DNA from: Acidobacteriota bacterium
GTDB taxonomy: Bacteria > Acidobacteriota > Vicinamibacteria > Vicinamibacterales > UBA8438
Assembly: GCA_009838525.1 (NCBI GenBank)
Contig: VXRJ01000018.1
Coordinates: 583,087 to 647,086, forward strand
Length of the DNA: 64,000 bases
Reading direction: 5' to 3'
Of this stretch, positions 9,870 to 46,020 are shown in pieces (the stretch's first letter is position 1; each line of letters starts with the position of its first letter). The notes below the pieces were generated by a model that saw only the letters and a program-made list of their open reading frames with translations, had not been told where the DNA came from and ran no database searches. The position numbers and the translations under genes were made by a program.

Positions 9870-9882
9870 TCAAGACGGCAAA

Positions 9883-11100: not shown

Positions 11101-11131
11101 ACGGCCGATTCCCGACGCCTGCCCTGACGTA

Positions 11132-14100: not shown

Positions 14101-14395
14101 CGACGTGGACGTGGTCTACAAGATCAACGAGGGGCGGCCGCACGTCGGCGACCGACTGCTCGACCGTGAGGTGCAGTTGATCATCAACACGCCGCTCGGC
14201 CGCGAGTCGTTCTTCGACGACATCACGATGCGCCGGATTGCCATGTTCACCGGCGTGCCTTGCCTCACGACGATGACCGGCGCCGCCGCGACCGTCGCCG
14301 GGATCCGGGCGCTTCGCTCCGAGCAGCGAACCGTCCGGCCGCTGCAGGACTACCACGCTGGCGTCACGTCGGCTGCCGACACAGCGGGCGGCTGA
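11132..14395 (+). CDS. carB: Carbamoyl-phosphate synthase large subunit
   Basis: 1087 aa, the expected size. The protein is an internal duplication of two ATP-grasp halves: the first opens with [21 protein letters not shown], the second with [21 protein letters not shown]. Conserved segments include [12 protein letters not shown] and [12 protein letters not shown], and [18 protein letters not shown]. The C-terminal MGS-like allosteric domain follows (about residues 945-1070). It makes carbamoyl phosphate from bicarbonate, ATP and the ammonia channelled from CarA. ATG 11132 is chosen because an upstream in-frame start would overlap carA and add non-homologous residues. Confidence 0.97.
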
Positions 14396-14428
14396 TCCGG
14401 TTACGGAGATGATCCGACCCGTTTGGGA

Positions 14429-15256: not shown

Positions 15257-15289
15257 CGTAGGCCGCGGATGCCCCGCGGGCGACCTGCT

Positions 15290-15295
15290 AGCATA
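15290..15295 (+). promoter_or_regulatory. Candidate -10 element for mazG (TAGCAT)
   Basis: TAGCAT ends 7 bases before the GTG start of mazG, which would give a leaderless or nearly leaderless transcript. No good -35 is visible. The same spacing recurs upstream of other genes in this window. Confidence 0.3.
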
Positions 15296-15302
15296 CGCCA
15301 CG

Positions 15303-16172: not shown

Positions 16173-16209
16173 GCGGTTACCCGGTCCGGCTGTCTTCGGT
16201 ACTCTCCGG

Positions 16210-18828: not shown

Positions 18829-18852
18829 GAACGGCAGGTGGCCTGCGCTACA

Positions 18853-20304
18853 TCACGGCTCGAGAATCGTTGCGGCCGAATCGGTCAGCTCCACGATGTG
18901 CAGTCCGGTATCCGCCCGGTCCGCCAGGTAGATCAACCCGCGGTCATCGACCTCGACGTTGTTCGTCTGGATGGCGATCTGGCACGTCTCGACGCCATCG
19001 ATGGTGGCGCAGCGCTCGGCCGTCCGTTCGGTGGTGGCAGGTATGTAGTACGCCACCTCGGCCATGTTGAACGGGTCGCGGATGTCGATGACTCTGGCTC
19101 CCGCGTTGAACCACGAGACAACCATCAGCTTCCCGTAGAACGGGGGCTCCATGGACCACTGCGGCGCATGCGGTCCGAACCGGCCGCCGCGCTCACAGAA
19201 ATCGCCGCTCGATTCGTCCACCTGAAAGGTCCCGATCGGCAAGGGGTGCGCCTCGTCCGTGATGTCGAGCATGAGGGTGACGTGGCGTGTCTCCTGGCAC
19301 CGGTTGGCGGTTGATTCGGAGACGACGAACAGGAAGTCGCGTGTGGCGTTGTCTCGGTTGCCGGCGTAGTCGGCAATCTCCACGTCGAGCAGCGGCATCG
19401 CGGTGTGGGCGCCCCAATAGGACGGCAGATCGACGCGGCCGATCTGCGGGTAGGCGAGGGCGCCGGGGCTCGTCCCGAGCGGCGCGGCGGCAGCGGGGTC
19501 CCCGTTCAGCAGCCGCTCGCGGTCGAGGATCTGGACGGCGCCGTCGGCGGACGTGCCGTACGCCATGTAGACGCGATTGCCCAGGATGACCGCCTCGTGC
19601 AGGCCCGATCCCCCCGGTATGGGTCCGCTCGCGTCGGGCTGGACACCGGGCAGGCTGAAGTCGCGGATCCGCCGCGGAGCGGCCGGGTCAGCCAGATCGA
19701 AGACCTGCAGTATGCGCGGCGCGCGCCAGCCGTCGACGGTCCCGACCAGATAGGCGACGCCGGTGTCGCACTCCCACCAGTTCTTGTGGGTGTGTTGTTC
19801 GCCGGACGGAGTGCGGCCCATATCGGCCGCCGTGCTCACGAACGCCGGGCTGGCCGGATCGGTGACGTCCCAGACTTCGTGGCTGATGTTCCCGTTCGAC
19901 CGCAGCAGATAGAAGCGGCCGGTGTCCGCGCCGGGGAGCCGGTCGCCCTCGCACACCTGGACCATCTGCGCGCCGCTGGTACCACCGGTCGCGGGAATGT
20001 GGGCGAGGTAGACGGGAGCGGCGGGGTCGGTGACGTCGACCACCGACGTGCCATTGGCTTCAACGGCACCGGTCAGCGGATTCAGCGCCTCGCCGGCGTG
20101 GTGGCCGATGTACGCGATGCGACGCTCACCTTGCCGGACCGGCAGCGGCTGATAGGCGGAGCGCCCCTGGAGGTCGCTCATGCCGACGAGCCGGGAGTTG
20201 AAGCTCTCCTCGCCATGGCCGGTGTTTGCGGGCTGCGCGAGGGCGTGGCCGGCGACAACGACAACCAGGAACGCAGCGAGCCTAGGGAGAATCCAACGGT
20301 TCAT
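18853..20304 (-). CDS. Secreted LVIVD-repeat (beta-propeller-like) protein
   Basis: 483 aa with a clear signal peptide ending around AGHALAQ. The body has repeated units of the type SVVDVTDPAAPVYLAHIP, EVWDVTDPASPAFVST, QVFDLADPAAPRRI and RVIDIRDPFNMAEVAYY, which are LVIVD repeats and probably build a beta-propeller. Several Cys residues suggest disulfides in the periplasm. Its role is unknown; LVIVD proteins are seldom characterised. It ends 24 bases from comEC on the same strand and starts 86 bases from the divergent sigma factor. Confidence 0.8.
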   Translation of the reverse strand: MNRWILPRLAAFLVVVVAGHALAQPANTGHGEESFNSRLVGMSDLQGRSAYQPLPVRQGERRIAYIGHHAGEALNPLTGAVEANGTSVVDVTDPAAPVYLAHIPATGGTSGAQMVQVCEGDRLPGADTGRFYLLRSNGNISHEVWDVTDPASPAFVSTAADMGRTPSGEQHTHKNWWECDTGVAYLVGTVDGWRAPRILQVFDLADPAAPRRIRDFSLPGVQPDASGPIPGGSGLHEAVILGNRVYMAYGTSADGAVQILDRERLLNGDPAAAAPLGTSPGALAYPQIGRVDLPSYWGAHTAMPLLDVEIADYAGNRDNATRDFLFVVSESTANRCQETRHVTLMLDITDEAHPLPIGTFQVDESSGDFCERGGRFGPHAPQWSMEPPFYGKLMVVSWFNAGARVIDIRDPFNMAEVAYYIPATTERTAERCATIDGVETCQIAIQTNNVEVDDRGLIYLADRADTGLHIVELTDSAATILEP

Positions 20305-31977: not shown

Positions 31978-34305
31978 ATGATGTCACCGGCGCGCGCGCG
32001 CATCGGGGGGCTCGCGCTGTTCGCGATCAACCTGGCTTACGCTGCCGGCCTGTTCGCCGCCATGTTCGGACCGAACGGGACCGGAACCCTCAATCTGGGG
32101 CCGGTGCTGGGAGCACCCCTCCTGCTGGTGCCATTCGGGCTGCTCATGCTGCGGCCGGTCGACCGGAACGCGTGGCTGCTGGCCCTGATGTGCAGCGGGT
32201 TCTTCGTCTTCGTCGGCGGGATCACGACGGGGCTGACTCCCGGCGCCACCGTGGCGATGGCCATGTACCGCAGCTTGGTGATGACGATGTCGCCGGCGCT
32301 GTTCGCCTGGCTGTTCCTAGTGTTCCCCGCCCGGACCCCTCTCGACGACCACGCCCCGGGTTTCAAATGGGGGCTCCTCGTCGTTGGAGCGGCCCTCGTG
32401 CTGACTTCCGATATATGGCCAGTGCTGCTCGGCGCGGCCCGGCCGGCTGACGCCGACGGCATGCTGCAGGTGCCCCTCATACAGGGGAACCTGCGTCGCG
32501 CAATCGATTTCCTGTACATCATGGGAGCCTTCGGCGCCGGTCTCTACGGCCTGATCTGGAACGCGTCGCGATCCCCTCGGTCGGACGTGCGCCGCAAGAC
32601 CACGGTGCTGGCAACCGGCACGGCCCTCACCGTGGTCCCCTGGGTACTAGTCGTGATGGCGGAATTGCTGGGCATCCCAGCTCCACAATGGCTGGGAATC
32701 GTGGCTGTGCTGAACACACCGTTCCTCCCGGCCGCCGTCGCGTACGCCGTCGTCCGCCATCGGGTCATGGCAATACCGGTATTGCTGCGTCGAAGCGCGC
32801 GGTACCTGCTGGTGCAACGGGGACTGGCGATCGCGAGCGTGCTGGCGAGCATCCTGGTGGCCATCCTGCTCGTGGGGGTGGTGCAACGGCTGCTGCCGGA
32901 GGAGTCGGAATTCGGCGTACCGGGCGCGGTGGTGCTGGCGGTCCTGACGGGTGTCACGCTGGCGCGCACCGGCACGCAGGTCGAACGCCAGGTTTCCGGC
33001 CGGATCGACCGGCTGTTCTTCCGCGAGAGCTACAACGCGCGCAACGTGCTGGAAGCACTCGCCGAACACGCGAACTCCGCCGCGGGACGCGACGAGCTCG
33101 CGGAGATGCTGGAGGCCGAGATCGACGAGGCGCTTCACCCGGCAACCATCGCCATCTACTTGGAGGACCAGCACGACCGGCTGACGATGATGGCGTCCAA
33201 ACCCGACGGTTCACGGGCGCCCCGGTCGCTGGATCCGCGGATGGAGACTTGGGCTCCTTTGGCTGGACGGCGGAAGTCGGTGCTTCTGCCCATCGGCCCC
33301 GGGATGTTGGTCGCGCAATCGGCCGGCGGGGATGGAGGAGTGGCCGGGCGGCTCTCCAGCCTGCTCCATCCCGTCGAAGCCGAATGCCTGGCGCCGCTCG
33401 CGGCGCGGCGCGACCACCGCCTGGTGGGATTGATCGCGCTCGGACCGCGGCTGTCGGAGGAGCCGTACTCGCGGGAGGATCTCCAACTGCTCGACTCGAT
33501 CGCGGACCATGCGGCGCTGACGGTCGAGAACATCGGCCTGAGCGAAGAGATGGCCGAGCGCCTCGAGGCGCAACGGGCCGCAGAACGGGAGATCGAGGTT
33601 GCACAGGACGTACAGCGCCAGCTCCTTCCCGCCAGAGCGCCCGAATTGCCCGGCTTCGTCTGTGCCGGACATTGCACGCAGGCAAAGTCGGTCGGCGGCG
33701 ACTACTACGACTTCATCCCGACGGGATCGGACGGCCTTACGCTGGTGCTGGCCGACGTGGCCGGCAAGGGGATCGCCGCCGCGCTGCTGATGGCCAACCT
33801 TCACGCCATTCTCCGTGGGCACCATGACCTGACGCGAAACGACCCGATCGGTCTGCTGGAACGGGTAAACCGGCAGTTCTACGCCTCGACCCCCGGCAAT
33901 CGGTACGCCACGCTGTTCCTAGCCAACTTCGACCGCCCGAGCGGCCGCCTGCTATACGTCAACTGCGGCCATGTCCCGCCCCGTGTAACGCGGGCGGACG
34001 GCGGGATCGACAAGCTAGAGACGACCGGGTTGACGATGGGCATGTTCGACACGTGGATCGGCGAGTCCGCCACGACGACCCTGCACCCGGGTGAAACGCT
34101 GGTGGTCTGTTCCGACGGTGTGCCGGAGGCGATGAACGACGCCGACGAGCTCTTCGGCGACGAACGCTTCGACGACCTGCTGTGCACGCACGCCCACTTG
34201 CCGGTGCCCGAGCTGATTACCGCCATCAAGTCCGACGTGCAGGCCTTTGCCGGCGACCGGCGAAGCGACGACCTGACGCTGCTCGTCGCCCGGGTTACGG
34301 CGTAA
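31978..34305 (+). CDS. Membrane SpoIIE/PP2C-type Ser/Thr phosphatase with GAF-like sensor
   Basis: 775 aa: about eight to nine membrane helices (residues 8-340), a GAF-like domain (about 360-515), a short coiled coil (SEEMAERLEAQRAAEREIEV) and a SpoIIE/RsbU phosphatase domain from about 545. The latter shows SVGGDYYDF, LADVAGKGIAAALLMANL, YVNCGHVPP, VVCSDGVPEAMN and SDDLTLLVARV, with the metal-binding Asp residues in place. It probably dephosphorylates a partner in response to a membrane or GAF signal. The membrane part contains a block (RHRVMAIPVLLRRSARYLLV then VERQVSGRIDRLFF) laid out like that of the kinase at 21202. It overlaps idi tail-to-tail by 11 bases. Confidence 0.9.
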   Translation: MMSPARARIGGLALFAINLAYAAGLFAAMFGPNGTGTLNLGPVLGAPLLLVPFGLLMLRPVDRNAWLLALMCSGFFVFVGGITTGLTPGATVAMAMYRSLVMTMSPALFAWLFLVFPARTPLDDHAPGFKWGLLVVGAALVLTSDIWPVLLGAARPADADGMLQVPLIQGNLRRAIDFLYIMGAFGAGLYGLIWNASRSPRSDVRRKTTVLATGTALTVVPWVLVVMAELLGIPAPQWLGIVAVLNTPFLPAAVAYAVVRHRVMAIPVLLRRSARYLLVQRGLAIASVLASILVAILLVGVVQRLLPEESEFGVPGAVVLAVLTGVTLARTGTQVERQVSGRIDRLFFRESYNARNVLEALAEHANSAAGRDELAEMLEAEIDEALHPATIAIYLEDQHDRLTMMASKPDGSRAPRSLDPRMETWAPLAGRRKSVLLPIGPGMLVAQSAGGDGGVAGRLSSLLHPVEAECLAPLAARRDHRLVGLIALGPRLSEEPYSREDLQLLDSIADHAALTVENIGLSEEMAERLEAQRAAEREIEVAQDVQRQLLPARAPELPGFVCAGHCTQAKSVGGDYYDFIPTGSDGLTLVLADVAGKGIAAALLMANLHAILRGHHDLTRNDPIGLLERVNRQFYASTPGNRYATLFLANFDRPSGRLLYVNCGHVPPRVTRADGGIDKLETTGLTMGMFDTWIGESATTTLHPGETLVVCSDGVPEAMNDADELFGDERFDDLLCTHAHLPVPELITAIKSDVQAFAGDRRSDDLTLLVARVTA

Positions 34306-34825
34306 TCCTGCGCTCGACGAGGGCGTCGAGGGCGATCCGGAACCAGACCGTGAACGTCTCGGGTTGCTCCGCGACGGTGCGGCGCACGTCCTCCAGGGAC
34401 ATCCACTTCCAGCCGCCCACTTCATCCGTGTTCGGGACCGGCTCGCCCGCGTAGCGTCCGATGACGACATGGTCGTACTCGTGTTCCGTCAGGCCGTGAT
34501 CCAGGTCCGTGCGATAGATGAAGCCGAAGGCCGTCTCGAGCGGACAGTCGAAACCCATCTCCTCGCGCAGCCGGCGGTGCGCCGCGTCCAGCACCGATTC
34601 GCCCGGCCGCGGATGGCTGCAACAGGTGTTCGACCAGAGCCCCCCCGAGTGGTACTTGCCCGACGCCCGCTGCTGCAACAACATTCGACCGGCGTCGTCG
34701 AAGACGAAGACGGAGAACGCCCGGTGGAGAAGTCCCTTCCGGTGCGCGGTCATCTTCTCCGCGACACCGGTTTCGCGATCCTGCGCGTCGACCGTCACGA
34801 CCTCTTCGATCACGGACTGAACCAT
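34295..34825 (-). CDS. idi: Isopentenyl-diphosphate delta-isomerase, type 1
   Basis: 176 aa from ATG 34825. It interconverts IPP and DMAPP. The catalytic Cys lies in SNTCCSHPRPGE, the catalytic Glu in LTEHEYDHVV, and the Nudix-like helix is RRLREEMGF. Length and motifs match type 1 Idi. It is the last gene of a tight minus-strand set that starts with the RiPP precursors; its start overlaps the upstream membrane-protein gene by 16 bases. In this position it could supply DMAPP for a prenylated peptide, or simply be a housekeeping gene next door. The upstream extension to 34975 would lie inside the neighbour. Confidence 0.93.
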   Translation of the reverse strand: MVQSVIEEVVTVDAQDRETGVAEKMTAHRKGLLHRAFSVFVFDDAGRMLLQQRASGKYHSGGLWSNTCCSHPRPGESVLDAAHRRLREEMGFDCPLETAFGFIYRTDLDHGLTEHEYDHVVIGRYAGEPVPNTDEVGGWKWMSLEDVRRTVAEQPETFTVWFRIALDALVERRITP

Positions 34826-35463
34826 GGCGCCAAGACGCCAGCGTACAGCATGGCGCCAGTAACAAGGCCAGCCATCATCGCCGGAATCGCGATGGCCCTT
34901 TGTCCTGACGGGAAGAAACGCAAGAGCCACGTTCCGCTCACGGCCAGTATCGCGACGCCGAAACCGATCGGCCACTCTACAGGCACTCCCGTCAGGTAGC
35001 TGAATTGCAGCTCATCGAACACTCTGTTGTCCGGGATGGGCCTGCCCAGCAGCTCGTCGGCGATATGCCGAACGCCGGCCACGACACGGACCTGCGAGAG
35101 GTAGGCAATCGCGACAAAAACGGGAAGCGGCTTCCACCAGGCACATGCCCAGCAGCACAAGGCCACGACGAGATACGTCACAACCGGACCCGCCAGATGC
35201 GCCAGCGCCACCGCCCTGATGGGCGCGATGGCTGCCGCCGCTGCCAGATCGCCCGTGGCAATCGCCGTCCGGAACGGGATATTGGTCCACCCGACCGCCA
35301 TCGGGTAGAAGCGCAGGTCCGGAACGTCAAGCAGCCAGTACACGACGTAGTGGCCTGCCTCGTGGGGCAATACCGCAAGCGGCGCGGCCGGAAGGCTCGC
35401 CAGGAACCACGGCAGTCCGATCCGCCAGAAAGGCCCGTTGGTTGCGAGGGTTGCCCGTTCCAT
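34810..35463 (-). CDS. Polytopic membrane protein with HEAGH motif (putative zinc metalloprotease)
   Basis: 217 aa with about five to six membrane helices. H34-E35-A-G-H38 sits in the first helix region (VLPHEAGHYVVYWLL), like site-2-protease (M50) or related intramembrane peptidases; AGPVVTYLVVAL and the loop GRPIPDNRVFDEL could provide the other parts of the site. A full M50 NxxPxxxxDG motif is not visible, so catalysis is unproven. It lies between the 383-aa protein (23 bases) and idi (overlap), inside the precursor operon, and might process, protect against or sense the peptide product. Confidence 0.65.
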   Translation of the reverse strand: MERATLATNGPFWRIGLPWFLASLPAAPLAVLPHEAGHYVVYWLLDVPDLRFYPMAVGWTNIPFRTAIATGDLAAAAAIAPIRAVALAHLAGPVVTYLVVALCCWACAWWKPLPVFVAIAYLSQVRVVAGVRHIADELLGRPIPDNRVFDELQFSYLTGVPVEWPIGFGVAILAVSGTWLLRFFPSGQRAIAIPAMMAGLVTGAMLYAGVLAPWFSP

Positions 35464-35486
35464 CTGTTGCTATCGATCGAGGAACG

Positions 35487-36638
35487 TCAGTTCCCGAGCG
35501 CGGCACGATTCGCGACACGTCCGGGCGCGCTATGACACAGGTACGACAGCAACAGGTAGGCCTTCACATCGAAGGTGGCGTCGCCGTCGAGAACGAACTT
35601 CAAGTGGTTGACGCGCCGGTCAATCAGGCTCCACCAGAGTTCGTGCGGCAGAACGGCCACCGATCGCCCGGGCCATTCCAGGAGCGCGTCGCGCTTGTCG
35701 CTCGTGCAGGCGCCAAACCGATTGAGCAGCGAGAGCAACTGCCGGTCGTCATTCGAGATCCGCCCGGCGCGCTGACACGGGCGCGAGAACAGCCTTTCCA
35801 GGCCGACTCGCGGCAAGACGCCCTGGACCGGGTTGACATCGAGATGGAGCATCGGCACGCACGGCGTGCCGTCCAAACTGTACCGGAACGCGGAAAGCCG
35901 GACCGCCGCGTCGAGATGCCGGTGACGCGTCGACGTGAGGCCGGTGACATATGACATCACCGCGTCAGTTGGCACGTTGGCAAGGCAGACGCGAATGGTC
36001 GGCGTCGGGCGGTGCATCATCAAACCGATGTAGGCCACAGCGGCAGACCGGGGAAGCGGCTCGATACAGGTGTGGAGCGCGTCCCGCACGAGCCTGGCCA
36101 CGGCGGCGGTCGTGGTGGCCTCGACCGCCCTCAGCACCTGATCGAACCAAGCCGACGGTCGGCCACGGCGCAACGGCGATAGCTTGACCAGACTGATGAA
36201 CATCCCGGGTTCCGGAACGCGAGATGTGGCGCGACGCGTTCCGGCGCCCGTGACGCCCGCGCCGACAGCGACGTCGTACTCCAGCCAAACATGATCCAAC
36301 GTCGCGCGGAGCGACGCACTGGTGATCCAGCGACGGCAGAAGGCCTGGAGACTCGCCCACCAGCCCGGCGCGCACCCTGCGTCTGCGAACTCGTGTCGAG
36401 CCAGAATCGCGGCGCCGCGCGGATAGATCGCCAGGACCAGATCGACTTGCGGCGCCGCATCACGCAAGCGGCACTCGAAGTAAATCATCTTCGACAATGC
36501 GGCAGGCAGATGATCAACTGCCGCTCCCAATCTGCTCAGGACGTCGTTCGAAACGAGCGGAAGTGGCAGTCGCGAACTCGCGGCCTGTAGGGTCGTGGTC
36601 AGCGAGTGCATTAGCGTGGACCCGCGAGCGATCCCCAA
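35487..36638 (-). CDS. Unrecognised 383-aa protein of the NHLP RiPP operon (possible core-modifying enzyme)
   Basis: 383 aa, soluble, with no signal peptide or membrane helix and no family I can name. Landmarks are YFECRLRDAAPQVDLVLAIYPRGAAI, HVWLEYDVA, VPEPGMFISLVKL, LHLDVNPVQGVLP, ISNDDRQLLSLLNRFG and, near the end, RRVNHLKFVLDGDATFDVKAYLLLSYL. It lies 9 bases after the second precursor gene and so is almost certainly co-translated with it, the usual place for a tailoring enzyme. With idi two genes on, a peptide prenyltransferase is one idea; no DDxxD motif is present, though ABBA-type enzymes lack it. A leader-recognition or immunity protein is also possible. Confidence 0.6.
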   Translation of the reverse strand: MGIARGSTLMHSLTTTLQAASSRLPLPLVSNDVLSRLGAAVDHLPAALSKMIYFECRLRDAAPQVDLVLAIYPRGAAILARHEFADAGCAPGWWASLQAFCRRWITSASLRATLDHVWLEYDVAVGAGVTGAGTRRATSRVPEPGMFISLVKLSPLRRGRPSAWFDQVLRAVEATTTAAVARLVRDALHTCIEPLPRSAAVAYIGLMMHRPTPTIRVCLANVPTDAVMSYVTGLTSTRHRHLDAAVRLSAFRYSLDGTPCVPMLHLDVNPVQGVLPRVGLERLFSRPCQRAGRISNDDRQLLSLLNRFGACTSDKRDALLEWPGRSVAVLPHELWWSLIDRRVNHLKFVLDGDATFDVKAYLLLSYLCHSAPGRVANRAALGN

Positions 36639-36647
36639 CGCATTGCG

Positions 36648-36962
36648 CTACTCGCCACTCCAGTTGTAACTACCGGTCGGATCGTAGATGGTGGCCGGGC
36701 CATCAACACCGATGCCTCCAGCAACCGCCTCGAGTTCCTCCGCCGACAGTTCGTCCTCGGAGACAGGGTCGGGCAGTACAAACAGCACATCGCAATCGCT
36801 GCCCTTCTCGATGAATCTCAACCGAAGGTTCTCCGGGAATGGGTAGTCAGTCATCGTCTGGAGAGTCCTTCGTGGATCCGTGAGCAATCCCCTGCGCAAG
36901 TCTTCGTCCGCTACAGCCCGCGCCAGCACCTTGTCGATCTGAGCCGCCAATTTGGTATTCAC
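36648..36962 (-). CDS. NHLP-leader RiPP precursor peptide 2
   Basis: 104 aa from GTG 36962, with AGGAGG nine bases upstream. The leader is of the nitrile-hydratase-like (NHLP) type: LTDPRRTLQTM, PENLRLRFIEKGSDCD, LFVLPDPVSEDELS. It ends in LEAVAGG at residues 82-83, a double-Gly site for the C39 peptidase encoded at 40734. Cleavage leaves a 21-residue core starting IGVDGPATIY and ending SYNWSGE, with no Cys, one Trp and two Tyr. The leader aligns without gaps with precursor 1. It is the middle gene of the minus-strand operon. Confidence 0.88.
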   Translation of the reverse strand: MNTKLAAQIDKVLARAVADEDLRRGLLTDPRRTLQTMTDYPFPENLRLRFIEKGSDCDVLFVLPDPVSEDELSAEELEAVAGGIGVDGPATIYDPTGSYNWSGE

Positions 36963-36971
36963 CGTGATTTG

Positions 36972-36977
36972 CCTCCT
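36972..36977 (-). promoter_or_regulatory. Ribosome binding site of precursor 2 (AGGAGG)
   Basis: A consensus AGGAGG lies 9 bases before the GTG at 36962. It fixes the start of precursor 2 in preference to the in-frame ATG at 36998. Confidence 0.7.
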
Positions 36978-37031
36978 GGAATCCCCTTGTTCGTGCATAC
37001 CTAAACGCCCCGCGCGGCAGCAGGACCTCGC

Positions 37032-37065
37032 CCGGTGGCCCCGGCCATGCCGCCGGAGCCACCGG
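37032..37065 (-). promoter_or_regulatory. Strong stem-loop between the two precursor genes
   Basis: CCGGTGGC (37032-37039) pairs with GCCACCGG (37058-37065); inside, CCGGC pairs with GCCGG around a 6-base loop, with one mismatch between the two helices. On the coding strand it begins 22 bases after the stop of precursor 1. No T-run follows, so partial termination, attenuation or 3'-end stabilisation that favours precursor 1 mRNA is more likely than full termination. Confidence 0.55.
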
Positions 37066-37087
37066 CGTTCGCTGCGCGCCTCGCTCC

Positions 37088-37390
37088 CTACTCGCCGCTG
37101 AAGATCCAGCCGTTGCACAGGTTGATGTGGAGGTCGCCGACGCCACCCGCAACCGCCTCGAGTTCCTGATCGGTCAGTTCGTCACCGGAGATCGGATCGG
37201 GCAGCACGAACATCGCGTCGCAGTCGCTGTCCTTTTCGATGAACTTCACCCGCAGGTTCTCCGGCACCGGCTCGCCGGCCATCTTCTCGAGCGTGGTGCG
37301 CGGGTCGCTCAGCAGCCCCGCCCGGAACTCGCTGTCGAGGGCAGACTTCGACAGCACCTCCTGCACGCGATCGTTAACGTTCTCAGCCAT
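37088..37390 (-). CDS. NHLP-leader RiPP precursor peptide 1
   Basis: 100 aa from ATG 37390, with AGGAGG six bases upstream. The leader matches the NHLP (nitrile-hydratase-like) family: LSDPRTTLEKM, PENLRVKFIEKDSDCD, MFVLPDPISGDEL. It ends in LEAVAGG (residues 82-83). Cleavage after the double Gly would release the 17-residue core VGDLHINLCNGWIFSGE, with single Cys, Trp, Ser and His residues. By my count 46 of 83 leader residues are identical to precursor 2, with no gap, while the cores share only the C-terminal SGE and nearby aromatics. It is the first gene of the minus-strand operon. Confidence 0.9.
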   Translation of the reverse strand: MAENVNDRVQEVLSKSALDSEFRAGLLSDPRTTLEKMAGEPVPENLRVKFIEKDSDCDAMFVLPDPISGDELTDQELEAVAGGVGDLHINLCNGWIFSGE

Positions 37391-37906
37391 GTCATACCTC
37401 CTTGGGATGATGAGGGGAGCACCGCACCATGCGTTCGCTCCGATGGCCGCAATGAACGCAAGCTGCATGCCAAGTGACGACGAACGTGTCGCGGCGCCCC
37501 GTTCCGGAACCCGTAGGTTGCGTCAGCAACTTCCGAAGAACGACAGATCCGCCCACAGGTAACGACCGACGTGATCCCATGGTGCGCGGCGGGGCGCCAG
37601 AAGCCCCTCTCGATTCGGAAGAAGCACGTCTACGGCGACTGCAACCGGAGATACCGGCGTCGCCGCCCAGCCTCGACCGTGTGCGTGCTGCGGGAGCGGT
37701 TCTCCTCGAAAAACACGGAGTGCGGTCGGCGCCGAACGCCGGCACCAATGAGTAACGCCGGTTGACATCGCTGCCGACACAGGGTGGCGGCAAGCTCGCT
37801 GGCTGGGTAGGCACCGGCAGTTCGCAACTCAATTGCGAGCCCGTAATCGCCAAGGCCAGGGTCACCGACCGGCGGTTCCGGCACGGACTTTGCATCCCCG
37901 CCGGAC
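37391..37906. promoter_or_regulatory. 516-base divergent control region of the RiPP locus
   Basis: This gap separates the precursor operon (minus) from the export operon (plus), so it must hold the promoters of both. AGGAGG for precursor 1 is at 37397-37402. A perfect TTGACA is at 37762-37767 on the plus strand, but the position 17 bases on (TGGCGG) is not a -10 box. A 10-base palindrome GTTCCGGAAC lies near 37501. A plus-strand frame of 58 codons from ATG 37579 (ending 37755) has no family resemblance and is probably not a gene. Confidence 0.4.
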
Positions 37907-39478
37907 GTGCATCGAACCGCAAGCCCGCGGCCCGGAGATTGCAAATGGTTTCTGCCAGTTGGTCGTGGCGACCTGCTTGCGATCCTGAGCGCGGTTCCCC
38001 TGGCATGCACGCCCGTCGCGTTCGGGCAGACCGCACCCGTCGGAATCAGCATCGGCACCGTGATGACAACTGTCCTGGCGGAGAGCCCCGACATCGAGCG
38101 GAGCACCCTCGCGATCGAAGCAGACGCTGCCGACCGGATCACCGCCGCCAGCCCGTTCGATTTCCGAATGCGCACGACGGTAGGCGGCGGGCGCGACAAC
38201 ATCGAGGTGAGCGGGGCGCTCGCGCCGACCGGCAACCTGACCACGCTCCTCTCGGGGACAAAGCTCTTCCGGTCCGGCGTCGCCATCTCTGCGGACGCTT
38301 CACTCGGAAGGTCCCGCGGTCTAGGCTCCCTGTCGCTCAATCAGGCGGACTCGTCGGTCTCCATCCGTGTCCCGTTGGCCGGCGGGCGCAAGGGGGGCGC
38401 AGCGGCAGGTATCGAACGCTCGGCGGAGCAATCGTATCGAGCAGCTCTGTTGGATCGCAGTCACGTGTCGGCCCTCGCGGTATTGCAGGCAGTTGCAGGG
38501 TACTGGCAGTACGCCGCCGCGCAGGAGCGACTCGAAATCCACCGGGCTTCGGCCGAGCGTGCGGAAGTCCTGGTTGAAGTCACGCGGGCACTGATTCGCG
38601 CGGACGAAAGACCAGCCTCAGATCTCGATCTGGTGACAAGCAACCTGGCCAACAAACGGACCGCCGTATCGGCCTCCGAGCAGGGCGTGATCGACGCCCG
38701 CTACGCCCTGGGCCTCGCAATGGGCCTGCAAGCCGACCAGCTTCAGGGGCTCGGCCTCCCGCTGACGGCCTTTCCGGCTCCCGGAAGAGTCTCGGAGCGC
38801 GGACCCGGCGTGCTACCCGCTGTGTTGGTCCGCATGGCGATTGGCGCACGGCGCGACCTGGCAGCGGCCAGGGCGCGGCGCAACGGCGCGCGGCTCGCGT
38901 GGCAAGGAGCATTGCACGACCTCCGCCCCCGCTGGGACGTCGTAGCGACAGTCGGCCATACGAGCGTTTACCTGAGCCCGAATCAGGAGAAATCCGCCAC
39001 ACCGTTGGGCACGTCGGGCCTCAACACCTTTGTGCAGATGCGATACGAGCCAATCGCGACCAACAGCGCCGCCCGCGGGCTTGCCCTGCGAACGGAAACC
39101 TCGTACCGAACGGCGGCGGTTGCCGCAAACGACCTCACGCGTCGAATTGGAGCCAACGTACTGGCGGCGACTGCGGCGCTCAACAACACCGCAAGCGAGG
39201 TGGTAATCGCCCAGGATGCGGTCCGTCTCTCCGGACGCTCCGTTGAAACCGAAGAAGCGAAGCTCCGCCTCGGACTCGCCACGCTGTTCGACGCGATCCT
39301 GTCCACCGACGCCCTGACAAGTGCACAACTCCGCCTGACGGATGCGCGGTACCGGTACGCCATTGCCCTCGCTCGCCTGCGGTTCGAGACCGGCACGCTC
39401 CTGCAGCACAACGCGGGCGGCGTCTCCGCAGAAACCCATCGTGTCCTGACACTCGAACTGGAGGGCGAATCCCAATGA
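37907..39478 (+). CDS. TolC-family outer-membrane efflux protein of the RiPP export operon
   Basis: 523 aa. A signal-like segment (LLAILSAVPLACTPVAFGQ) precedes a TolC/OEP body with long helical hairpins (for example YRAALLDRSHVSALAVLQAVAGYWQY-type and ETEEAKLRLGLATLFDAILS). Two OEP repeats are evident. It should form the outer-membrane duct for the peptide exported by the two ABC proteins and the HlyD adaptor. GTG 37907 gives the longest frame; it has no good Shine-Dalgarno, so the start is uncertain. Its stop overlaps the next start (ATGA). Confidence 0.82.
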   Translation: MHRTASPRPGDCKWFLPVGRGDLLAILSAVPLACTPVAFGQTAPVGISIGTVMTTVLAESPDIERSTLAIEADAADRITAASPFDFRMRTTVGGGRDNIEVSGALAPTGNLTTLLSGTKLFRSGVAISADASLGRSRGLGSLSLNQADSSVSIRVPLAGGRKGGAAAGIERSAEQSYRAALLDRSHVSALAVLQAVAGYWQYAAAQERLEIHRASAERAEVLVEVTRALIRADERPASDLDLVTSNLANKRTAVSASEQGVIDARYALGLAMGLQADQLQGLGLPLTAFPAPGRVSERGPGVLPAVLVRMAIGARRDLAAARARRNGARLAWQGALHDLRPRWDVVATVGHTSVYLSPNQEKSATPLGTSGLNTFVQMRYEPIATNSAARGLALRTETSYRTAAVAANDLTRRIGANVLAATAALNNTASEVVIAQDAVRLSGRSVETEEAKLRLGLATLFDAILSTDALTSAQLRLTDARYRYAIALARLRFETGTLLQHNAGGVSAETHRVLTLELEGESQ

Positions 39479-40737
39479 GCCGGGATCGAGTGTTTCGAAA
39501 GGTGGCGCTGGACCGCCTCGCCTCTCCCGAGCAGCTCGACAAGCTGCTGCAGGTGACGCGACCGCGCAGTTGGATTGCCCTGGCCGCGCTGGGGTGCCTG
39601 GTTGGATCCGCTGTTGTTTGGGGGTTTGAGGGCAGCATCCCTTCCAGGGTGAGCGGCCAGGGCATCTTGCTCAAGAGCGGCGGCGTCTTGGAAATCGCGA
39701 CGGGCGCGGGCGGCAGGATCACTGATATCGCAGTGAATGTCGGCGATGTGGTTCGGGAGGGGCAGGTCGTGGCCCGAATTGCCCAACCCGACACCCTGAA
39801 CCGCATCCGGCAGGTGCGGCTCGCGCTCGACAACCTCCAGGTCGCACATCGGCTGACGAGGACGCACCGAGAGGAAGAAACCAACCTGCAACTCGCCCAA
39901 CTGGCACAACGTCGTGACGGACTCGAACAGTCAATCGACGCCGCGGCAGCCATCCTCATCTGGCTGGACAGCAAGATGGCCGCACAGGAGCAGCTCGTTG
40001 AACAGGGTCGATTGACGCGACAGGCACTGATTGACACTCGCCGTCAGCGTGACGGAACCGCGGAGGAAATGCGAGCTCGGCAAGACCAGTTGGCGGAGCT
40101 TCGAATCCAGGAAGTGGCAGCGCGAGCCCGTAACGCCCGTACTCTTCAAACCAGTGAATACGAAGTCGCTCGCGCGCGGACGGAACTGACCCAACTTGAG
40201 CGCGAGTTGAAGGAGATGTCCGAAGTGCTCTCCACTTTCTCCGGCCGAGTCATCGAAGTGATGACGGAGCAAGGCGATCTCGTCGCACCAGGACAGCCCT
40301 TGCTCCGGCTGGACCGCACCGGCCGCACTGTCACTGGCCTCGAAGCCGTCGTCTACGTGCCGTCGGCACATGGCAAGCGAATCCGATCCGGCATGACGGT
40401 GCGGATTGCGCCCGCGTCCGTTGCGCCGGAGGAGTATGGCTATCTGCTCGGCACCGTCACCTTCGTTTCGGACTTCCCGACGACATCACGCGCCGTTCAG
40501 CGAACGCTGCGGAATCCGGAACTGGTAGCCGCCCTCACCCGGGGCGACGCGCCGTACGAAATCCGGGTGGACCTGCGTCTTGATCCGACGACGGCAAGCG
40601 GCTACCTCTGGTCGTCATCGGACGGGCCGCCGATCGACATCCTTACCGGCACGCTCTGCAGTGTGCTCATCACGGTGGAGCGACGGCGGCCGATCGACCT
40701 CGTAATCCCCATGATTCGCGATCAGTTCGGGCTGTGA
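39475..40737 (+). CDS. NHLM-type HlyD-family secretion (membrane fusion) protein
   Basis: 420 aa. One membrane helix (about residues 33-52) is followed by a biotinyl-lipoyl half (ATGAGGRITDIAVNVGDVVREGQVVARI), a long coiled-coil hairpin (about 105-245), the second half-motif (GRVIEVMTEQGDLVAPGQPLLRL) and a beta-barrel region. This matches the NHLM bacteriocin secretion protein that links the inner-membrane ABC exporter to TolC. It overlaps tolC and the peptidase/ABC gene by four bases each, so the trio is coupled. Confidence 0.9.
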   Translation: MSRDRVFRKVALDRLASPEQLDKLLQVTRPRSWIALAALGCLVGSAVVWGFEGSIPSRVSGQGILLKSGGVLEIATGAGGRITDIAVNVGDVVREGQVVARIAQPDTLNRIRQVRLALDNLQVAHRLTRTHREEETNLQLAQLAQRRDGLEQSIDAAAAILIWLDSKMAAQEQLVEQGRLTRQALIDTRRQRDGTAEEMRARQDQLAELRIQEVAARARNARTLQTSEYEVARARTELTQLERELKEMSEVLSTFSGRVIEVMTEQGDLVAPGQPLLRLDRTGRTVTGLEAVVYVPSAHGKRIRSGMTVRIAPASVAPEEYGYLLGTVTFVSDFPTTSRAVQRTLRNPELVAALTRGDAPYEIRVDLRLDPTTASGYLWSSSDGPPIDILTGTLCSVLITVERRRPIDLVIPMIRDQFGL

Positions 40738-43031
40738 CCGTGCCTTCCATTCCCGACCGGCTGCTGGCAGTCGTCAGTTCGTTCCGTGCAGGCCTGGAGG
40801 GACTGTCGCTACCTGGGCTTTCGGTCAGGTTTCCCGGGCAACGCCGGATCCACGTCCCGACCGTGTTGCAGATGGAAGCGGTTGAATGCGGCGCAGCCGC
40901 ACTGGCCATGGTGCTCGGCTGGTTTGGCCGTTACGTCCCCCTTGAGGATCTGCGCGTTGCCTGCGGCGTGTCGCGCGACGGAAGCAAGGCTGCCAACATG
41001 CTAAAGGGAGCCAGGCAATACGGCCTCACGGCACGGGGTCTTCGCCGCGAACCGAACGACCTGCGACGGTTGCCGGTCCCGTTGATCGTCCACTGGAATT
41101 TCAACCATTTCGTGGTCCTCGAGGGCTTTGGGCGGGACCGCGTATTCGTCAACGATCCGGCGTCGGGGCCCCGCGCCGTGTCAGTGGAGGAGTTCGATCA
41201 AGCGTTCACCGGCGTCGTGTTGACGTTCGAGCGTGGCGCGGACTTCAGGCGAGGCGGGGCAAGGCGCCGCCTCGTTACGGCACTCCGGCCGCGGCTTGCC
41301 GGATCGTACCCGGCACTCGGCTACGTCGTCGGAACGGGGCTGCTGTTGGTCGTTCCTGGCCTGGTCGTGCCGACCTTCTCCAGGCTCTTCGTCGACGACG
41401 TTCTGGTCCGAGGCGCGGCTGAGTTGGCACGCCCGCTCTTCCTGGCGATGGGAGTCGCCCTGGCGGCAACCGCGACGCTGACGTGGTTGCAGCAACGCTA
41501 CCTGCTGCGGTTGGAGACGAAGTTCGCCGTGACGACGTCAAGCCAGTTTCTCTGGCATGTGATGCATCTTCCGATGCAGTTCTTCTCACAACGATACCCG
41601 GGCGACATCGGTTCTCGTGTAGTCATAAACGACCGGATCGCCTATCTGCTGTCGGGGGAACTGGCGGCCGCCTTCATCAGCGCGTCCATGGCGGTTTTCT
41701 ATGCGGCATTGATGTGGCAATACGACCGAGGGCTCAGCTTCGTAGCAATAGCGACAGCAGTGCTGAATGTCATCGCGTTGAAGTACTTCTCCGCCAAGCG
41801 GGTCCACCTCAATCAGCAGTTACTTCACGAGCAGGCGCGCATGCTCGGCACTGCCATGGGCGGACTGCAGAGCATCGAAACACTAAAGGCGATGGGCGCC
41901 GAATCCGACCTGTTCACCAAGTGGTCCGGCTATCAGGCCAAAGCTGTCGGTGCGGAGCAGCGGCTCAAGCTCCAGACAGAACTCCTGTCGACCGTACCTC
42001 GCCTGCTGATGCCGATCAGTACGGCATGCATCCTGGGGATTGGCGGCCTGCGAGTCATGGACGGAGGGATCAGCATGGGGATGTTGATCGCCTTTCAGGC
42101 CCTGATGCTGGGCTTCATCACCCCAATCAACCGCATGGTGGATCTCGGCAGCACGTTGCAGGAAGTCAAGGGCGACGTAGCGCGCCTCGATGACGTCCTG
42201 TCCGCTACCGCCGAGCTTCACCCGATGGATGACGGTTTCATGGTGATACCGGAGACCGGTACCGGCATGCAACAACCGTTGCAGCCCGCGACCGTCGGTT
42301 TCCAGGTCAAGCTGTCTGGATACCTGGAACTGCGGGACGTCAGCTTCGGCTACAACCCGCTCGAACCACCTCTGGTTGAACGGTTCAGCCTGAGGCTGCA
42401 ACCCGGCCAGCGGGTAGCGCTCGTTGGCGGATCCGGTTGCGGAAAAACGACTATCGCCAGACTTGTCTGTGGCCTCTACCAACCCTGGAACGGCGATGTT
42501 CTCTTCGACGGCCGACCACGGCAGACGATCCCGAGACGATTGATGACCACTTCGTTCTCCGTCGTCGACCAGGACGTATTTCTCTTTGAGGGGTCCATCC
42601 GCGACAACCTGACACTCTGGGACTCAACCGTCGCGGAGGCAGACATGGTGCGTGCGGCGGCTGATGCTTGCATGCATGAAGAGATCTCCGCTCGCCCGGA
42701 TCACTACAACGGCCCGGTCGAGGAGGCCGGGCGCAACTTCAGTGGAGGCCAGAGACAACGTCTCGAAATAGCCCGCGCGTTGGTAACCAACCCGACCGTG
42801 CTCGTGTTGGACGAGGCGACCAGCGCACTTGACCCGACCACCGAGGCCCGGATCGATGACAACCTCCGCCGTCGCGGCTGCACTTGCCTGATTGTTGCTC
42901 ACCGCCTCAGCACCATCCGCGACTGCGACGAGATCATCGTGCTCGATCGGGGAGCGATTACCCAGCGCGGTACGCATGACGAACTGATGGAAACGGACGG
43001 TCCCTACAGCCGGCTCATCGCAGCCGCCTGA
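40734..43031 (+). CDS. NHLM-type peptidase-containing ABC exporter (C39 peptidase/TMD/ATPase)
   Basis: 765 aa from GTG 40734. The N-terminal C39 peptidase has its catalytic Cys52 in QMEAVECGAAALAM, His125 in NFNHFVVLEGF and Asp141 in VNDPASG. Six membrane helices follow (about 190-470), then the ATPase with Walker A GGSGCGKTTI, signature FSGGQRQRLEIARAL, Walker B LVLDEATSALD and a switch His in VAHRLST. It should cut the precursors after the Gly-Gly at leader position 83 and export the core. Catalytic residues are all present. Confidence 0.95.
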   Translation: MTVPSIPDRLLAVVSSFRAGLEGLSLPGLSVRFPGQRRIHVPTVLQMEAVECGAAALAMVLGWFGRYVPLEDLRVACGVSRDGSKAANMLKGARQYGLTARGLRREPNDLRRLPVPLIVHWNFNHFVVLEGFGRDRVFVNDPASGPRAVSVEEFDQAFTGVVLTFERGADFRRGGARRRLVTALRPRLAGSYPALGYVVGTGLLLVVPGLVVPTFSRLFVDDVLVRGAAELARPLFLAMGVALAATATLTWLQQRYLLRLETKFAVTTSSQFLWHVMHLPMQFFSQRYPGDIGSRVVINDRIAYLLSGELAAAFISASMAVFYAALMWQYDRGLSFVAIATAVLNVIALKYFSAKRVHLNQQLLHEQARMLGTAMGGLQSIETLKAMGAESDLFTKWSGYQAKAVGAEQRLKLQTELLSTVPRLLMPISTACILGIGGLRVMDGGISMGMLIAFQALMLGFITPINRMVDLGSTLQEVKGDVARLDDVLSATAELHPMDDGFMVIPETGTGMQQPLQPATVGFQVKLSGYLELRDVSFGYNPLEPPLVERFSLRLQPGQRVALVGGSGCGKTTIARLVCGLYQPWNGDVLFDGRPRQTIPRRLMTTSFSVVDQDVFLFEGSIRDNLTLWDSTVAEADMVRAAADACMHEEISARPDHYNGPVEEAGRNFSGGQRQRLEIARALVTNPTVLVLDEATSALDPTTEARIDDNLRRRGCTCLIVAHRLSTIRDCDEIIVLDRGAITQRGTHDELMETDGPYSRLIAAA

Positions 43032-43056: not shown

Positions 43057-46020
43057 ATGGAGATGAACGAGACGAGACATCGGGGAGTGACGCTGTTCTC
43101 CAAGTGCGATCCTGCCTACGAGACGGGGGCCAACCACCCGTTCCTGCTGGACGACGGCTCGGTGTGGTTCGTGCAGCAGGGAAGCCTGGACGTCTTCTGC
43201 CTCCGCCACAGCGCCGACGGCAAACTGTCCGGCCGAACGCTCGTGACTCGGATTGAAGAGGGAAGCTGCCTGGTTGGGGCGACCGCGGTCAGGGAAAGCG
43301 GCGGATCTCCGGGTGCGCTTCAGGCGGTGTCCCGCCCTGGAACGACGCTGCGCCACCTGGCCCCGGCAACCGCCCGCAAGCGGTTCGGGGAACCACAGGC
43401 GCGTGATGACGCGGCCCACCTTCTTGACCGCTGGATCGACGCGGTTTGTACTGGGCTGACCACCGACCCTCGGCCGCGGGACTGCCGTCCAGTCAGGCAA
43501 ACGTCAAGTGTCCATCTCGCAAGAGGGGCAGCCGTCTCTTCGTTCAGTGGCGTTTCCTGGATTGCTCACCGCAAGGGCCGGTCGCGGTTGCTCGGGCAGG
43601 CCGCGCTTCCCATGGATGCGGCGCTGATTCCGTGCACGAAGCACATCTGGTTCGAGACCTACTGCCCGGCGGACGTGGCGGTACTCAGCACTCGGACCGT
43701 CCTGGCAACGGACGACATCTGGGCCGCGCTTGCCAACTTCCAGTCAGTCGTCATCCAGTGCGCTCTCTTGCGGATGGAACAGGCCGCAAAAACCGAGGCT
43801 GCCCGGCAGCAACGTCGCGACCTCAACCGGGTCGAATTGCTGACCGGTGCATTTGCCGACCTGCTTGCCGCGTACAACGCCTCGACCACCGGGTTGGCCG
43901 GCGACGTGAACAGGCCTGCGCGTACAGACGCAAGGAACAACGGCGACGGCGACGCGTCGTTCGCCAGGGCATGCGGCTTGATCGGAGACGGACTCGGCCT
44001 GCAGATCGCGACGGCGCCGAGCCGCGAGAGGGCGCCGGCAACCGACCCGGTGACGGCAGCGGCGAGGGCTTCCGGTATGCGTGTCCGGCAAGTTCTGCTG
44101 GAAGAGGGCTGGTGGCGAACCGATAGCGGCCCCCTACTCGCGCGGACTGAGGGCGAGCCGGCCCGATGGGTCGCCCTCCTGCAGGAAGCACCCGGACGCT
44201 ACCTGCTTCACGGCCCCTCTGCTGCGGACGTTCCGCAGCGCGTAACGGGCGCCGTGGCGAAGACGCTGGCGCCTGTCGCCCACAGCTTCTATCGGCCATT
44301 CCCGGCGAGCGGGCTTTCGTTCCGCGGGATTCTGCGGTTCGCCGCCCGCGGATGCGGCCGGGACCTGACGAGGATAGTCCTGCTTGGCCTGGCCGGCGGT
44401 CTGCTCGGCCTGCTGACACCGGTCGCCACGGGCGCGTTGTTCAACACGATCATCCCGAGCGCGGAGCGCGATCAACTGTGGCAAGTGACCTCGATTCTCC
44501 TCGCCGGCGCCATCGCCACCGGGATGTTCGAATTGGGTCGGCGGCTGTCACTCGTTAGGCTCGACGGCCGGCTGGGCGCGACCGTACAGGCTGCGGTCTG
44601 GGATCGACTACTCAGTTTGCCGCTGGGGTTCTTTCGACCCTACTCGGCCGGCGACCTTGCGGTGCGCGCCATGGGCATCGATACGATGCGGCAGACACTG
44701 TCGGGCGCTGGTGTGACCGCGGCGCTGGGCGGAATGTTCTCGCTCTCGAACATCGGGCTCCTCTTCTACTACGGAGGAAACCTCGCGTGGTGGGCCGTCT
44801 TTCTACTCGTAGCCGCCATCGGCGCAACGCTGACGATTGGCTGCGGGCAGCTTCGGCTGCAACGCCGTATCGTCCCCCTCAGCACGAGGACTTCCGGCCT
44901 GGTCCTCCAGCTGCTGAACGGCATCTCCAAGCTCCGCGTCGCGGCTGCCGAAGGGCATGCGTTTGCCCAGTGGGCCAACCTGTTCAGTCAGCAGCGTCGC
45001 CTTCAAATACGGTCGCGCACGGTGAGCAACTCGCTCATCGTCTTCAATGCCATCTTTCCCTCTCTGGGCATGCTGGTGATCATGGCCGCGGCAACGGCAG
45101 GCGGGACTGCCGTCGCGGCGATACGGACAGGCGACTACCTTGCCTTCTCCGCAGCCTTCGGCGCCTGCCTCGCGGCATCGGTTTCGCTGAGCACCGCGGC
45201 GATCGAAGCGCTGGGCCTGGTGCCCGTCTACGAGGCGGTCAGGCCGATTCTGGCTGCAGCACCAGAAACGACCGACGCCGAGCGCGATCCCGGGGTGCTG
45301 AGCGGCCGGATCGAAGCGCAACACCTGACGTTCAGCTACCGGCCGGACGTGCCGGCCACGCTGATCGATGTGTCACTTTCGGTGCGGCCGGGTGAGTTCG
45401 TTGCGATCGTGGGACCGTCCGGATCCGGGAAGTCGACCCTGCTTCGCCTGCTGCTTGGCTTCGAACCACCAGACACGGGCTCGGTCTACTTCGATGGCCA
45501 AGACCTGGCCGGACTCGACGTGCGCGCTGTCCGCTCGCAGGTCGGCGTAGTCCTGCAATCGGGACGTATCATGGCAGGCGATCTCTTCACGAATATTGTC
45601 GGCTCGAGCATCCACACCCTGGATGACGCGTGGGCCGCAGCCCGCATGGCGGGACTTGATGACGACATTCGCGCCATGCCCATGGGAATGCACACCGTGG
45701 TCAGCGAGGGCGCCAATACCCTGTCCGGCGGGCAGCGCCAGCGGCTGCTGATCGCCCGGGCGATCGTCAACCGGCCGCGCATGCTCTTCTTTGACGAAGC
45801 GACCAGCGCCCTCGATAACCGTACGCAGGCGATCGTCAGCACCAGCCTCGCACAATTGAGCGCAACGCGCATCGTTATCGCCCACCGCCTCAGCACGATC
45901 GAACACGCGGATCGGATTCTCGTCATGGAACGGGGTGGCATCGTCCAATCCGGGCGATACGCCACGCTAATCAACCGGGATGGGCCTTTTGCCGAGCTGG
46001 CAAGCAGGCAGATGGCCTGA
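43057..46020 (+). CDS. NHLM-type ABC transporter ATP-binding/permease protein with N-terminal cupin-like domain
   Basis: 987 aa. The N-terminal region (about 20-130) resembles the cNMP/cupin-like domain of NHLM ABC proteins (FLLDDGSVWFVQQGSLDVF), followed by a long linker. Membrane helices span about 430-710, and the ATPase has GPSGSGKSTLL, LSGGQRQRLLIARAIV and LFFDEATSALD. There is no peptidase domain; such proteins accompany the C39 exporter and probably form a heterodimer or a second translocator. It begins 25 bases after its partner. Confidence 0.92.
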   Translation: MEMNETRHRGVTLFSKCDPAYETGANHPFLLDDGSVWFVQQGSLDVFCLRHSADGKLSGRTLVTRIEEGSCLVGATAVRESGGSPGALQAVSRPGTTLRHLAPATARKRFGEPQARDDAAHLLDRWIDAVCTGLTTDPRPRDCRPVRQTSSVHLARGAAVSSFSGVSWIAHRKGRSRLLGQAALPMDAALIPCTKHIWFETYCPADVAVLSTRTVLATDDIWAALANFQSVVIQCALLRMEQAAKTEAARQQRRDLNRVELLTGAFADLLAAYNASTTGLAGDVNRPARTDARNNGDGDASFARACGLIGDGLGLQIATAPSRERAPATDPVTAAARASGMRVRQVLLEEGWWRTDSGPLLARTEGEPARWVALLQEAPGRYLLHGPSAADVPQRVTGAVAKTLAPVAHSFYRPFPASGLSFRGILRFAARGCGRDLTRIVLLGLAGGLLGLLTPVATGALFNTIIPSAERDQLWQVTSILLAGAIATGMFELGRRLSLVRLDGRLGATVQAAVWDRLLSLPLGFFRPYSAGDLAVRAMGIDTMRQTLSGAGVTAALGGMFSLSNIGLLFYYGGNLAWWAVFLLVAAIGATLTIGCGQLRLQRRIVPLSTRTSGLVLQLLNGISKLRVAAAEGHAFAQWANLFSQQRRLQIRSRTVSNSLIVFNAIFPSLGMLVIMAAATAGGTAVAAIRTGDYLAFSAAFGACLAASVSLSTAAIEALGLVPVYEAVRPILAAAPETTDAERDPGVLSGRIEAQHLTFSYRPDVPATLIDVSLSVRPGEFVAIVGPSGSGKSTLLRLLLGFEPPDTGSVYFDGQDLAGLDVRAVRSQVGVVLQSGRIMAGDLFTNIVGSSIHTLDDAWAAARMAGLDDDIRAMPMGMHTVVSEGANTLSGGQRQRLLIARAIVNRPRMLFFDEATSALDNRTQAIVSTSLAQLSATRIVIAHRLSTIEHADRILVMERGGIVQSGRYATLINRDGPFAELASRQMA

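Follow-up and report, generated by a model that had tools for sequence, protein, structure and literature searches.

A predicted ABBA-type prenyltransferase encoded next to NHLP precursor peptides in an acidobacterial genome

The stretch of DNA analysed here (64,000 nucleotides of an Acidobacteriota contig, VXRJ01000018.1; hereafter, the window) encodes, next to two NHLP precursor peptides, a protein that is very probably a RiPP-modifying enzyme. We consider it highly likely that this protein is a soluble ABBA prenyltransferase acting on the cores of the NHLP precursors, most likely on the single Trp of each. The assignment is based on an AlphaFold2 model, structure comparisons with Foldseek and VIA-align, homology to an mpp-type prenyltransferase from Moorena, and a set of conserved polar residues. 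From its place in the operon, the protein had previously been proposed as the foremost candidate for modifying the cores; both the predicted ABBA fold and its enzyme-like character strengthen this proposal.

The open reading frame at 35487-36638 on the minus strand is real: it comprises 383 codons from a TTG start, and its GC content by codon position (0.66/0.52/0.79) is coding-like. The preliminary description placed it 9 bases after precursor 2, which stops at 36648; this distance holds for the TTG start, but becomes 36 bases for the ATG at 36611, the likelier start (35487..36611, 374 aa) because the N-termini of the homologs line up there. No clear ribosome-binding site was seen at either TTG 36638 or ATG 36611. 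The gene is the third of five on the minus strand, following precursor 1 (37088..37390) and precursor 2 (36648..36962), both with NHLP leaders (TIGR03793), and preceding genes for a membrane protein bearing a metalloprotease-like HEAGH motif (34810..35463) and a type 1 isopentenyl-diphosphate isomerase (34295..34825). The successive intergenic distances of 122, 36 (to ATG 36611), 23 and -16 bases, the last being an overlap between the membrane protein and isomerase genes, are operon-like. Divergently from the precursors, the plus strand encodes a TolC-like outer membrane channel (37907..39478; PF02321), an NHLM membrane fusion protein (39475..40737; TIGR03794, 386.5 bits) and two NHLM ABC exporters, the first of which carries a C39 leader peptidase (40734..43031; TIGR03796, 1066.3 bits; PF03412) and is followed by the second (43057..46020; TIGR03797, 889.5 bits). 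With TIGR03794, TIGR03796 and TIGR03797 all above their cut-offs, and TIGR03793 above its own for one of the two precursors, this is an NHLP cluster. Of the genes annotated from 34 to 46 kb, only the 383-codon frame visibly encodes a core-modifying candidate. A scan of positions 33500-38500 against Rfam gave no match at the gathering thresholds.

Searched against Pfam at E<=1, the window protein had no match; NCBIfam gave a chance match only (E 0.18), and PDB sequences a single one at E<=10 (E 1.7). A single-protein scan of genome contigs returned 20 stretches, none of them containing a relative by tblastn. A profile of the homologs obtained no match among PDB sequences at E<=10 and reached no solved ABBA structure, so that the fold assignment rests on prediction. 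The AlphaFold2 model, calculated from an alignment of eight sequences (the window protein and those of seven related loci), has a pLDDT of 83.1 and a pTM of 0.84, and displays long strands in five pairs between helices, together with one short extra strand, that is, a predicted ten-stranded barrel built from alpha-beta-beta-alpha repeats. Foldseek returned 38 PDB matches at E<=0.001 (the best at E 4.1e-6, with TM-scores between 0.37 and 0.56), every one of them an ABBA prenyltransferase, including 5- and 6-dimethylallyltryptophan synthases, PriB, IptA, CymD and TleC, as well as DMATS1, AmbP1, NphB, CloQ and EpzP; the majority of the 38 are indole prenyltransferases. VIA-align gave a Z-score of 16.6 to DMATS1 (4.4 A over 295 residues) and 16.5 to both CymD and MpnD. 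The ABBA barrel, which headed the list of folds suggested by the preliminary description, is thus what the model, Foldseek and VIA-align all predict, and what is seen is a predicted barrel with a conserved polar set rather than an immunity or structural protein devoid of a pocket. Readings of the protein as a ligase or a leader-binding RRE were dropped on the strength of the predicted ABBA fold.

Conservation was evaluated in 69 aligned rows, the window protein included, with residues numbered from the ATG. E46, near the N-terminus, is kept in all 69 rows, D57, E111, R207, K338, K350 and Y352 each in 68, D113 and R201 in 66, and D258 in 65; the three residues K338, K350 and Y352 bear out the earlier suggestion of a conserved C-terminal block. 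Except for R201 and D113, these residues lie on predicted strands, and they are presumed to face the barrel pocket. The window protein retains E46, D57, E111, D113, R201, R207, D258, K338, K350 and Y352. Omitted from both the tree and the column counts were seven of the 76 rows that represent fragments of less than 280 aa (L020, for which a wrong fragment had been taken, L077, L166, L168, L180, L185 and L190). L061 was dropped altogether, being the same contig as L026.

Homologs were found by a single-sequence search in 9 of 100 related genomes, the genome of origin included. Wider searches with a profile of 12 homologs, each count including the centre genome, detected homologs in at least 26 of the 193 class genomes, at least 10 of 396 sampled across the phylum, at least 14 of 292 belonging to the same phylum as the Moorena genome and at least 23 of 200 belonging to that of a Gemmatimonadetes genome, these being lower bounds because only 5 to 10 first-look candidates were scored per genome. 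In 58 of the 76 homolog loci examined for context, including the window, an NHLP or Nif11 precursor, LanM, LanKC or YcaO is encoded within 6 kb; the remaining 18 lack these RiPP genes within that distance, some having them farther off or lying at contig ends. This context covers three members of genus g100 in the class search, leaving out five others (G121, G122, G123, G125 and G126) and a G022 fragment, and, for the Gemmatimonadetes phylum, leaves out pieces in G864 and G1009:C35. By tblastn matches, the 76 loci include 42 labelled NHLP, 21 YcaO, 20 terpene-cyclase-like, 18 LanM, 10 Nif11, 8 FAD oxidase, 8 halogenase, 3 isomerase and 1 LanKC; ABC exporters of any kind may have received the exporter label, and the LanM and LanKC labels cross-match, such that L016 bears both and one of the 18 LanM labels is the L016 LanKC.

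The four closest relatives of the window protein (39-40% identity) share the gene order precursor, LanM, homolog and membrane protein, with an isomerase gene inserted between the latter two in two of the four and not nearby in the other two. The window assembly, which is 96.85% complete, yields no LanM with TIGR03897, and its cluster thus has no lanthionine synthetase of the kind that accompanies MppC-type enzymes. It is one of 13 loci with a precursor and without LanM, LanKC, YcaO, FAD oxidase or PhyH within 6 kb. The most window-like among these, L071 and L184, combine a precursor, the enzyme and an NHLM exporter, with no LanM in the stretches examined. In the phylogenetic tree, the window protein groups with the four LanM-linked relatives (100/96), but deep branching is poorly supported, with the Moorena protein placed in the opposite half (66/38); the LanM-free loci are therefore not claimed to share one origin.

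The neighbourhoods of the more distant homologs are diverse. The genome of origin itself carries a second, very different paralog (L058, contig C32:72000-91999; 8491-9609), surrounded, at 8060-20000, by an NHLP precursor ending in LCCCW, a YcaO cyclodehydratase, NHLM exporters and a halogenase-like gene, and including, at 11957-13264, an NHLP-like leader fused to a squalene-hopene-cyclase-like protein (SQHop_cyclase_C, E 4e-5, under the Pfam cut-off). NHLP, YcaO and cyclase-like genes co-occur within 6 kb in eleven further loci of the 76. In another group of loci (L018, 5287-6200; L020, 7713-8369; L062; L064; L065; L068), NHLP precursors with very short Trp-containing cores, such as NYETW, HGADESDAW and HWCSPV, are found beside an FAD-linked oxidase (FAD_binding_4 in L062, tblastn matches in the others) and a prenyltransferase homolog. 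By eye, the distant homologs L163 (8597-10885) and L165 (8296-10710) have a cyclase-like C-terminal half in the same open frame, L160 (8205-10541) has a terpene-cyclase-like N-terminal half, also in frame, and L173 (9497-11278) and L174 (8561-10279), both from Moorena-phylum genomes, have a 2-oxoglutarate-oxygenase-like C-terminal extension and adjoin several Nif11 precursors, mostly ending in KIKW or PKPKW. Finally, at L016 (7064-11699), a class III lanthionine synthetase (RamC_N, kinase and LANC_like) is followed by a prenyltransferase homolog and a methyltransferase.

A link to a characterized enzyme is provided by a contig of Moorena sp. SS36440bin_2 (L024), recovered in a further scan of genome contigs through a homolog 29% identical to the query L002. 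The window and Moorena prenyltransferases align over their full length (27% identity, 364 columns, E 2e-30). The Moorena gene is accompanied by LanM, a Nif11 precursor, a UPF0489 protein, with a second UPF0489-like gene recognized by eye, a Trp halogenase, and a further protein of which one part is squalene-hopene-cyclase-like. The 84-aa precursor ends in ACWRWSG, with Trp at positions 80 and 82, and this core is that of the published mpp cluster. The mpp cluster further comprises the halogenase MppI, the LanM MppM, two arginases, the prenyltransferase MppC, the terpene synthase MppD and an oxygenase (PMC11791876). MppC geranylates Trp82 at the indole C5 on the macrocyclised, leader-bearing peptide, favours GPP and the macrocyclised substrate, and requires the leader, which Phe340 engages according to an AlphaFold 3 model, with mutants in support (PMC12715784). 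The Moorena protein shares Phe340 with MppC but differs from it at position 336 (Leu instead of Trp), and is therefore a close relative of MppC rather than its record. Through this homolog, the window protein appears homologous to the CHARACTERISED enzyme MppC, the connection running via the matching Moorena locus and not via the MppC sequence itself. Hence, instead of the new RiPP enzyme family proposed in the preliminary description, the protein represents a divergent relative of a lanthipeptide prenyltransferase published in 2025 (PMC12715784); the related statement that it matches no recognizable family stands insofar as no Pfam or NCBIfam model covers it, but not in view of its homology to the mpp-type enzyme.

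The relationship to MppC has its limits. Opposite the Moorena element that bears Phe340, the aligned window protein has a 15-residue gap and is therefore to be considered a relative of the MppC-type enzymes, not a member. Lacking this element, it is predicted to recognize its leader differently from MppC, as the NHLP rather than Nif11 leaders and the missing LanM would also suggest, which poses the question of how such enzymes recognize NHLP leaders.

The two precursors of the window bear on the identity of the acceptor. Precursor 1 scores above the TIGR03793 cut-off of 50.9 (56.1 bits) and, after the double-Gly end AVAGG, has the core VGDLHINLCNGWIFSGE, with one Trp and no Tyr. Precursor 2, which starts from a GTG at 36962 or in a longer frame reaching 37118, scores below that cut-off (46.6 bits), and its core, IGVDGPATIYDPTGSYNWSGE, contains one Trp, two Tyr and no Cys. 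Trp, in the contexts NGW and YNW, respectively, is the only aromatic residue common to both, and the motif ICW is present in the cores of all four closest relatives. Parsed cores contain Trp in 29 of 38 prenyltransferase loci compared to 3 of 10 hand-picked NHLP loci in which no prenyltransferase was found (Fisher P 0.0097), a value that is optimistic because related loci are counted as independent and the controls are few and hand-picked, with L114 and L117 being near copies. The controls exclude partial NHLP matches and frames with two matched halves that resemble another protein, whereas the count for prenyltransferase loci excludes precursors more than 5 kb from the gene (e.g., L017 and the Trp-containing L060 and L169). 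Also excluded were eight loci in which no double-Gly motif was parsed: L161, L179, L183 and L196, with Trp in the tail, and L159, L181, L186 and L187, with none there. Two of the three Trp-bearing controls, L108 and L111, look like parts of prenyltransferase clusters; the L111 core is identical to those of L017 and L060. The third, L109, has the LCCCW core seen elsewhere beside YcaO and a prenyltransferase. At L108 (9770-11146; G010 contig C1), four NHLP precursors end in Trp (TPCW, HPCW, FRGW and PPCW), and NHLM exporters are present, with no prenyltransferase found in 13.6 kb and a contig end nearby. Given that nine of the 38 loci have no Trp in the parsed core (L019, L026, L070, L075, L077, L170, L172, L194 and L202), several of these containing Tyr, Trp is not the acceptor throughout the family.

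On the donor side, the isomerase scores above the TIGR02150 cut-off (124.5 versus 105.8 bits), has a NUDIX domain and contains NTCCSHP and EHEYDH, which we take to be the catalytic motifs. Type 1 enzymes convert IPP to DMAPP and are rare among the related genomes (7 genes in 6 of 100 genomes), and three of the seven genes lie 0.07 to 0.7 kb from a prenyltransferase homolog. By a rough estimate, the chance of such proximity is ~0.002 for each, and as two of the three pairs come from one genus, they represent at most two independent events. On one contig of G010, the isomerase, with its own ATG, and a prenyltransferase homolog share an open frame with no stop between them, perhaps a fusion. Either isomerase or terpene-cyclase-like genes occur within 6 kb in 26 of the 76 loci. 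Because DMAPP also feeds GPP synthesis, the isomerase leaves the chain length of the donor free. The membrane protein encoded at 34810-35463 has a conserved counterpart (46-50% by tblastn) next to the prenyltransferase gene of each of the four closest relatives, and HExxH is invariant in an alignment of four sequences, the window protein and three relatives. It has no Pfam match, and examination as a known protease (AlphaFold2 pLDDT 74.7) gave no Foldseek match at E<=0.001; it may be a maturation protease or an immunity protein.

Under the proposed mechanism, the window enzyme would use an allylic diphosphate to isoprenylate an aromatic side chain, most plausibly that of the single Trp in each NHLP core. 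The conserved Arg, Lys and Tyr residues on the barrel strands would bind the diphosphate, and Glu46 may hold or deprotonate the indole, by analogy with DMATS enzymes. The donor could be DMAPP or a short-chain diphosphate, its supply aided by the isomerase encoded at the operon end. Prenylation would come before the NHLM exporter removes the leader with its C39 domain and the product is exported. As LanM is absent and precursor 2 lacks Cys, the substrate is probably linear rather than macrocyclic.

The main alternative, that an ABBA prenyltransferase modifies Tyr or another residue instead of Trp, draws on the cores with Tyr but no Trp at several homolog loci (L019, L026, L070, with GGYY, and L077) and on the two Tyr in the core of precursor 2. 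Nevertheless, we consider it unlikely, given that precursor 1 offers no Tyr in its core and shares only Trp with precursor 2, that the four closest relatives carry ICW, and that MppC modifies Trp (PMC12715784). That the enzyme acts on a small molecule or on free tryptophan, with the precursors adjacent by chance, is the least probable of the alternatives, even if the best-matching solved structures are those of small-molecule prenyltransferases: RiPP genes flank 58 of the 76 homolog loci, the precursor, enzyme and membrane protein stay together in relatives of about 40% identity, its distance from the precursor genes is typical of an operon, and free Trp is not accepted by MppC (PMC12715784).

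It also seems very improbable that the protein is a decayed, non-catalytic relative left behind after the loss of LanM, or serves only as a leader-binding partner. In favour of this reading, the search of the window assembly detected no LanM, although all four closest relatives encode one next to the enzyme, and the leader-binding element of MppC is missing; yet the frame is intact, the conserved polar residues are all retained, Trp is kept in both cores, and LanM-free loci recur (L071 and L184, in the stretches examined). Prenylation of the core Trp by a functional ABBA enzyme thus remains the preferred reading.

Beyond the window, the evidence is evenly balanced on a broader proposal: that ABBA prenyltransferases serve generally, and not just among lanthipeptides, to tailor ribosomal peptides guided by a leader, working in LanM, LanKC, YcaO and FAD-oxidase clusters, and that in window-like clusters they would be the sole core modifiers, yielding exported NHLP peptides modified only by prenylated Trp, with donor supply raised by an isomerase of the same operon, once perhaps fused to the enzyme. 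Judged from sequence, the apparently new elements are the lack of LanM, the isomerase at the operon end, the lack of the Phe340 insertion, and the homologs in YcaO, LanKC and FAD-oxidase clusters. In the mostly open-access main texts consulted, no account was found of an ABBA prenyltransferase encoded near YcaO or in an NHLP cluster that lacks LanM; with further mined clusters shown in the supplement of PMC12715784, this is no proof of novelty. A protein without a family model thus receives a testable function, and homologs in the class and in the Moorena and Gemmatimonadetes phyla are now linked to peptide prenylation. If the proposal is correct, an enzyme that needs no macrocyclase and takes linear peptides with their leader attached could find use in peptide lipidation.

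The nearest described peptide prenyltransferases that we met are MppC, NctPC and PalQ. The isoprene synthase fold is all-alpha, whereas the window model is an alpha/beta barrel, so that the window protein and PalQ, an enzyme of the isoprene synthase superfamily, presumably have separate origins. PalQ resembles the window enzyme in being a Trp prenyltransferase of a small cluster with an NHLP precursor, the only further gene named in the text consulted being a histidine kinase, and differs in its superfamily (PMC10853753). According to a review, NctPC (Hubrich 2024) has an ABBA fold, a Trp acceptor and low similarity to cyanobactin enzymes, but is a fusion of an ABBA prenyltransferase and a terpene cyclase that uses GGPP (PMC13290415), whereas the window enzyme is single-domain. 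Cyanobactin prenyltransferases, such as PagF and its relatives, also combine an ABBA-type fold with peptide substrates (PMC12715784; PMC13290415), but act after leader removal (PMC12715784). No NCBIfam, beyond the chance match, Pfam or PDB sequence match ties the window protein to this family, insofar as the model libraries include a cyanobactin model. Like the window protein, MppC is of the ABBA type, and its gene adjoins that of a leader-bearing precursor whose core contains Trp; it differs in its association with LanM and a Nif11 leader, whereas the window enzyme is accompanied by NHLP leaders and an isomerase gene, without LanM.
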